Shown piece by piece: positions 31,209-31,655 of a DNA stretch of 35,835 bases. Numbering within the stretch: the stretch's first letter is position 1; each line of letters begins with the position of its first letter. The DNA is from a bacterium (GTDB lineage: Bacteria; Patescibacteriota; Minisyncoccia; UBA6257; JAGOQP01): NCBI GenBank assembly GCA_021844025.1, contig JAKBUF010000005.1:1-35835 (forward strand). Direction: 5' to 3'. Made by a program: the position numbers and the translations under genes. A model generated the notes under the pieces. It did no database searches and was not told the DNA's origin. It saw only the letters and a program-made list of their open reading frames with translations.

Positions 31209-31282
31209 GGGCCTATAGTATAGCGGTAGAACGAGCGCATGGCATGCGCTAGGTCGGGGTTCGACTCCCCGTAGGTCCACCA
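31209..31282 (+). tRNA. tRNA-Ala (anticodon GGC), CCA encoded
   Basis: GGGCCTA...AGCGCATGGCATGCGCT...CGGGGTTCGACTCCCCG TAGGTCC ACCA, with the G3-U70 pair expected for Ala. Confidence 0.93.
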
Positions 31283-31465
31283 AAAAATTGATGCGATGAA
31301 CCTATCAATTTTTTGAGAACTACAGCAAGCCAACTGCTTAGCTTGCGTGGGGAAGTTGAAGACCGCAGCGCTATGTATTTAGTAAAATACATCGCGAGGG
31401 GCGGTCTGCGAGTTTACTGAGCGACGGCGAGGCAAAACTTGTAGACGACTCCCCGTAGGTCCACC
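31262..31465 (+). repeat. 20-bp direct repeat of the tRNA-Ala 3' end flanking a structured 164-nt segment
   Basis: CGACTCCCCGTAGGTCCACC at 31262-31281 and 31446-31465. Confidence 0.85.
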
Positions 31466-31473
31466 CCACATAT

Positions 31474-31655
31474 CGGGCCGTAGTGTAACGGCTAGCACGA
31501 GTCCTTCTTGCCTCGTCAGATAAATCGGAGAGTAGTATAATGGTAGTATACATGCTTTGGGAGCATGAGGTCCGAGTCCGATTCTCGGCTCTCCGACAAA
31601 ACTATCTGACGGGGTGAAGGAGGATTTATTCCGGGTTCGAATCCCGGCGGCCCGA
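31474..31655 (+). tRNA. Interrupted outer tRNA hosting a nested tRNA-Pro in its anticodon loop; isotype uncertain
   Basis: CGGGCCG TA GTGTAACGGCTAGCAC G AGTCC TTC[insert]A GGATT TATT CCGGGTTCGAATCCCGG CGGCCCG A. Acceptor, D, anticodon and T stems all pair once the insert is removed. Confidence 0.8.
31526..31596 (+). tRNA. tRNA-Pro (anticodon TGG), nested inside the outer tRNA
   Basis: CGGAGAG TA GTATAATGGTAGTAT A CATGC TTTGGGA GCATG AGGT CCGAGTCCGATTCTCGG CTCTCCG A. Confidence 0.88.

Follow-up and report, generated by a model that had tools for sequence, protein, structure and literature searches.

The window analysed here, a stretch of 35,835 nucleotides from an ultra-small bacterium of the CPR (Patescibacteriota, class Minisyncoccia), contains at positions 31474–31655 a complete tRNA-Pro gene that lies within the anticodon loop of another tRNA gene. 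The question raised by this locus is whether the outer gene is still used, with a tRNA-bearing intron removed from its transcript, or whether a tRNA cassette has destroyed it. The preliminary description had offered both options; the cassette that destroyed its host was favoured by the comparisons below, and the intron yielding two tRNAs was disfavoured.

Layout of the nested locus

The window sequence was re-read, and the tRNA-in-tRNA arrangement was found as first described. The 5′ half of the outer (host) tRNA is located at 31474–31506 (forward strand, as for all features below) and comprises the acceptor strand, the D arm, AGTCC, T32, and T33. The 3′ half (31620–31655) comprises the 3′ end of the anticodon loop, GGATT, the T arm, the acceptor strand, and A73. 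The outer halves had been described as canonical, and the stem fit gave complete stems (acceptor 7/7, anticodon 5/5, T 5/5, and D 4/4 pairs); neither ARAGORN nor Rfam reported the interrupted outer tRNA in the window. The arms of the 12-bp inverted repeat, CCTCGTCAGATA (31511–31522) and TATCTGACGGGG (31603–31614), form the helix claimed for them, with 12 standard pairs, one of which is T-G. In the predicted fold of 31474–31655, the outer cloverleaf forms together with the long arm helix, and the inner tRNA shows its acceptor, anticodon, and T stems.

The outer tRNA was identified by a DNA search of 100 relatives, followed by extraction of the matching loci. It was found uninterrupted in other genomes of the order, including one of the same genus (G002), with the sequence AGTCC-TTTGGGA-GGATT of tRNA-Pro(UGG). 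The G002 gene is 97% identical to the 5′ half and 98% identical to the 3′ half, and its tRNA neighbours (His, Phe, Arg-UCU, Arg-CCU, Ala-GGC, Ser-CGA) are those of the window, in rearranged order. Because a genome of the same genus has the gene uninterrupted, the outer isotype was assigned as Pro(UGG), and the Lys(CUU)- or Gln(CUG)-like identities suggested earlier were rejected. Compared with the G002 allele, the likely borders are AGTCCTT (ending at 31506), CTTG...TGAAG (31507–31619), and GAGGATT; the missing part is therefore the host anticodon TGG, the place of which is occupied by a 113-bp cassette, CTTG-CCTC...GGGG-TGAAG.

The cargo of the cassette, the inner tRNA-Pro(UGG), was called at 31526–31596/97 by ARAGORN and Rfam (62.5 bits, family threshold 29), the Rfam covariance search recovering it as the canonical tRNA-Pro(UGG) it had been taken for. 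The window genome (assembly approximately 90% complete) has 42 tRNAs, among which the Pro tRNAs are GGG, CGG, and the nested UGG, the inner copy being the only Pro(UGG) found. In the DNA search, the nearest relatives of the inner tRNA (94%) belonged to other families and none to the window's own family, which points to horizontal acquisition of a tRNA of foreign type.

A separate repeat was observed nearby. The 3′ end of tRNA-Ala(GGC), GACTCCCCGTAGGTCCACC, at 31263–31281 is repeated exactly at 31447–31465, approximately 165 nt downstream, and the stretch in between is hairpin-rich with no obvious gene. The same layout (a tRNA, a structured stretch, and the repeated tRNA 3′ end) was seen after tRNA-Pro genes at four other loci (L049, L050, L051, L054), so a second kind of element, targeting tRNA 3′ ends, seems likely.

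Recurrence and turnover of nested tRNA genes

When five nested inserts, each from a different family, were aligned, all 12 positions of the arm helix were 100% paired and 6 of the 12 pairs had changed on both sides; the whole-structure values were matched by none of 500 shuffles. The 12-bp helix is thus more than chance. A covariance model of the arms and the inner tRNA was used for the searches (the L035 row was omitted, its arm having been misplaced by MAFFT). Having Pro inner tRNAs as its training set, the model favours Pro, but it does not favour loci where the isoacceptors agree. Among 244 genomes of the order, approximately 33 strong matches stood apart from ordinary tRNA-Pro matches, and strong matches were obtained in 37 of 250 genomes of the class sample and in 7 of 309 genomes of the phylum sample, five of the latter outside the class. 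Nested copies occur in many families of the order and class and are rare elsewhere in the phylum. Two of the carriers have names, Candidatus Jorgensenbacteria (L132, whose contig is also G054:C17) and Candidatus Moraniibacteriota (L171); of 120 stretches from a loose-pattern contig scan, only those from these two were real. A match in Kazan (L224) was discarded as chance, and the 3′-arm pattern, searched with a viral origin in mind, had no true match in viral contigs. An assembly chimera, a doubt raised at the outset, is excluded by independent recurrence in dozens of genomes.

The junction of the window cassette was common to approximately 35 of 77 inspected matches (counted by eye), where CCCC...GGGG, followed by TRAA or CAAG and then GG, was found at the same place in the anticodon loop. 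The inner and host anticodon types agreed in all of the approximately 31 unambiguous loci (UGG 12, CGG 13, GGG 5, and Ala-CGC 1). Inserts carrying tRNA-Ala(CGC) sit in tRNAs of the same isotype (L284, L309, L330, L363), and those carrying tRNA-Arg(UCG) in Arg tRNAs, placed in the D loop (L367, L382).

Plain, nested, and resolved states were all observed at one locus in a single genus (g30), upstream of the same gene: a plain tRNA-Pro(CGG) in G033, nested genes with different arm families in G104 and G106, and, in G105, a single complete tRNA with an arm and the host 3′ half left over behind it, which is what a deletion between the two 5′ halves would produce. At L036, L045, and L222, a single host half was retained and the inner tRNA was intact. 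Two loci were doubly nested, with two serial host 5′ halves before one complete tRNA-Pro (L048 in G016:C2 and L320 in G803:C58). U33 was lost in six of seven clean CGG-type outer tRNAs (L264, L265, L274, L278, L321, L338) and kept in the seventh (L276). Ten outer tRNAs retained nearly all stem pairs in the stem fit, which, when automatic, works only where the halves contain no further interrupting hairpin. Such further hairpins were found in the D, variable, or T loop of the host at other nested loci.

At L267, L268, L280, L286, L298, L316, and others, the extra hairpins are simple, stand exactly in one of these loops (CCCCGTAGC..GCTACGGGG, CCTGCCTGCCGGCAGGCAGG, TCCGCC..GGCGGA), and often follow GGTAG or GGTTC. 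A second architecture, in which long perfect inverted repeats directly abut the acceptor stem of tRNA-Pro, was seen at L283, L292, L295, L301, L302, and L304; some of these loci keep host tRNA remains.

Terminal repeats and GIY-YIG genes

Of the 244 genomes of the order, 66 contain the arm sequence CCCCGTTAGAWAT, of which the window arms are a variant; in total it has well over 100 occurrences, compared with 8 matches for a reversed-pattern control. As in MITEs, the dispersed copies share it as terminal inverted repeats, and many copies are palindromic elements of 32–120 bp. When 26 copies with both ends were inspected, exact 4-bp flanking direct repeats (e.g., TTGA, TTTA, TCTA) were present in 14, almost all tRNA-less, and no 4-bp target duplication was found at the tRNA-bearing copies or in the window.

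Some elements enclose a gene. At L355 and L347, the palindromic element contains a GIY-YIG nuclease gene, and its right repeat is the gene end, TAT CTA ACG GGG TAA (Y-L-T-G-stop). A protein search detected close relatives of this nuclease in 59 of 194 genomes. Of the 28 GIY-YIG genes inspected, 24 lay inside perfect inverted repeats of 12–20 bp, including ACCCCGTTAGATA (YLTG) and ATCCCGTTAGAGA (SLTG). GIY-YIG genes within ACCCCGTTAGATA and other repeats, in other genomes, thus offer the autonomous partner with the same ends that is expected for a MITE. The left arm in the window is of the same family as the GIY-YIG element end CCCCGTTAGATA, and two other such ends, ACCCCGCACCTTTTTAGGAT and ACCCCCACACTCAAAAACTACT, are arm families of nested tRNAs (L290, L276). 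The GIY-YIG protein of these small elements is a single-domain nuclease, and the arms of the nested tRNAs match the terminal inverted repeats of the elements. In the window, the right arm and the three bases after it (31603–31617) read TAT CTG ACG GGG TGA, that is, YLTG-stop with a synonymous leucine codon (CTG for CTA). From this short match, the segment is a putative relic of a GIY-YIG gene end, which would account for the conserved TGA after GGGG. The only GIY-YIG gene in the window's assembly is of another type, and the matching mobiliser is therefore absent from that assembly.

GIY-YIG genes were also found in an alternative form, with a 5′ fragment of a tRNA on one side and the same tRNA complete on the other; this was seen for Val, Lys, Asn, Tyr, Ser, and initiator Met. 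An example in the window genome is L397 (G000:C25:158-361, minus strand), situated between a 5′ fragment of initiator tRNA-Met and the intact tRNA (G000:C25:33-104).

Several further placements were recorded. An element with the end CCCCGTTAGAAAT lies directly after tRNA-Ala(CGC) and is flanked by the direct repeat TCCA (L371, G000:C16:10979-11160). Autonomous GIY-YIG elements are fitted tightly between host genes at L426, L428, L430, L440, and L455, where the right end, GGGGTAAATG or GGGATGAAA, extends into the start region of the next gene. A resemblance to integron attC sites was rejected: GTTAGAT...ATCTAAC has the letters of the attC core but not their order, and the other arm families do not keep it.

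Interpretation and comparison with known systems

The best reading of these sequences is that the cassette is a self-rescuing, non-autonomous, tRNA-carrying mobile element. We consider it probable that a 113-bp element with palindromic, GIY-YIG-type ends and a tRNA-Pro(UGG) cargo replaced the anticodon of the resident tRNA-Pro(UGG), an event made survivable by the isoacceptor match. Such an element, carrying a tRNA in place of the nuclease gene, would enter the anticodon loop of a resident tRNA-Pro gene, after which the host tRNA would be dead. Ordinary 5′ and 3′ tRNA end-processing enzymes would then cut the cargo out of the transcript, and the released inner tRNA, if expressed, would supply Pro(UGG) decoding. 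The mobiliser may be a GIY-YIG nuclease with matching terminal inverted repeats acting in trans, or the cassette may spread by repair homing from a nested donor allele. Two routes are conceivable: an insertion survives if the cargo is the host isoacceptor, or the cassette homes from a nested donor allele sharing the host halves.

This reading of the cassette is argued for by the uninterrupted G002 allele among the same tRNA neighbours, and by an inner tRNA that is the sole Pro(UGG) in the assembly and most like those of other families. Recurrence with covarying arms and the agreement of inner and host isoacceptors point the same way, as do the arm families shared with the inverted ends of GIY-YIG genes, the tRNA-less copies with 4-bp repeats, the three states in genus g30, and the decay of hosts by loss of halves, added hairpins, and loss of U33. 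Against it stand the near-full outer stem pairing at ten loci, which a dead gene need not show, the lack of the 4-bp duplication at tRNA-bearing copies, the absence of a matching mobiliser from the window's assembly, and the UGG-host junction TTCTTG...TGAAGGA, whose conservation exceeds what a neutral scar requires. In the window, the recency of the insertion explains the intact outer stems; elsewhere, palindrome correction or a structural role is possible.

In the intron alternative, a nuclease of whatever type and a ligase would excise the insert and join the outer halves, so that two tRNAs are made. The covarying arms and paired outer stems fit this, as does the 7-nt Pro loop that removal of the unit between G35 and G36 would give in most CGG, GGG, and some UGG hosts. 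In the window, however, no simple cut restores a Pro loop, and excision there and in other TTCTTG hosts would leave a 9-nt loop; with the loss of U33 from most clean CGG-type outer tRNAs, the product would, judged from sequence, not be a functional tRNA. Moreover, host halves are missing or broken by hairpins at many loci where the inner tRNA is intact. Relatives do not share the bulge-helix-bulge layout earlier proposed for the junction: next to the arm helix, the bases vary (left TTCTTG, TTCG, CACG, TCCG, ATGG; right TGAA, TAAA, CAAG), and a conserved 3-4-3 layout was not found, the window having a 3-bp core at most. The check for processing genes that had been suggested gave no tRNA-splicing endonuclease (PF01974) in seven genomes, the same search having found it in four archaeal controls, and RtcB in one of the seven, which was not the window's. 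Splicing of the bulge-helix-bulge type was rejected on the absence of the endonuclease from these genomes and the variable junction. A group I or II intron was also rejected, as no core was matched in Rfam at the gathering threshold or up to E = 10. Splicing of the outer tRNA is thus unlikely, and we regard the intron alternative as improbable.

A second alternative invokes no mobile element: the nested locus would have arisen by DNA-repair accidents (template switching at palindromes, tRNA duplication), with the arms kept complementary by quasi-palindrome correction. It would explain arms that are unlike in sequence yet complementary, and the many simple hairpins in the tRNA loops of these genomes. 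We give it little credence, since a handful of arm families turns up repeatedly, in distant families, in intergenic copies flanked by 4-bp repeats, and around nuclease genes, and since the inner tRNA is of foreign type. Least probable of all is an outer tRNA that is never charged but serves the inner tRNA as a scaffold, for structure or for processing, and whose stems are therefore under selection: outer acceptor and T stems are paired at ten loci despite changes in the anticodon loop, but half of the outer tRNA is missing at three loci with an intact inner tRNA, and close uninterrupted relatives make the window insertion recent enough to explain its intact stems.

Beyond this locus, we advance a broader proposal tentatively, at slightly less than even confidence: that Patescibacteria harbour a new class of mobile elements, in which single-domain GIY-YIG nucleases mobilise palindrome-ended, tRNA-targeting elements carrying a same-isoacceptor replacement tRNA, and that single-copy tRNA genes have been taken over horizontally again and again with decoding kept. 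If true, it would show how single-copy essential tRNA genes can be invaded and replaced by foreign ones, the invader carrying the remedy for its own damage. A mechanism would then be at hand by which tRNA genes turn over horizontally in streamlined genomes, and the small GIY-YIG genes that are abundant in CPR bacteria would gain a function. For annotation, it should be kept in mind that tRNA finders call the inner gene ordinary and miss the disrupted host.

In open-licence PubMed Central, neither a bacterial tRNA gene inside another tRNA gene nor a GIY-YIG element ending in these repeats was found described; the search also covered tRNA introns of CPR bacteria, palindromic elements, and GIY-YIG proteins in connection with tRNA or Patescibacteria, with the same outcome. 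MITEs, which have terminal inverted repeats, and palindromic elements of bacteria (e.g., the Rickettsia palindromic elements) are small and non-autonomous. Like them, the cassette is short, palindromic, dispersed, and without a gene of its own, and its tRNA-less copies have target duplications; unlike them, it has a whole tRNA gene as cargo, occupies a tRNA gene for the same isoacceptor, and has ends that match GIY-YIG elements instead of a known transposase. Integrative elements are also known that insert into tRNA genes and make them whole again. The cassette likewise hits a tRNA gene and brings sequence that makes good the damage, but it is 113 bp long, has no integrase, uses an anticodon-loop site, and brings a whole foreign tRNA, whereas integrative elements restore one host end.

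Archaea have bulge-helix-bulge tRNA introns, which can transpose, and split tRNAs; in these, the halves are joined by a GC-rich helix (PMC10714607, PMC4090602). The anticodon-loop insert and the GC-rich helix joining two halves are shared with the cassette, which differs in its junction, in the splicing endonuclease missing from seven genomes and the ligase missing from the window's, and in holding a complete tRNA. In CPR rRNA genes, GIY-YIG insertions matching neither intron group have been described, with no mention of tRNA (PMC11270868). Single-domain GIY-YIG genes in CPR RNA genes, outside group I/II introns, are common to those homing elements and to the elements described here; the latter differ in ending in inverted repeats and in targeting tRNA genes, and the copy in the window has a tRNA where the nuclease gene would be.
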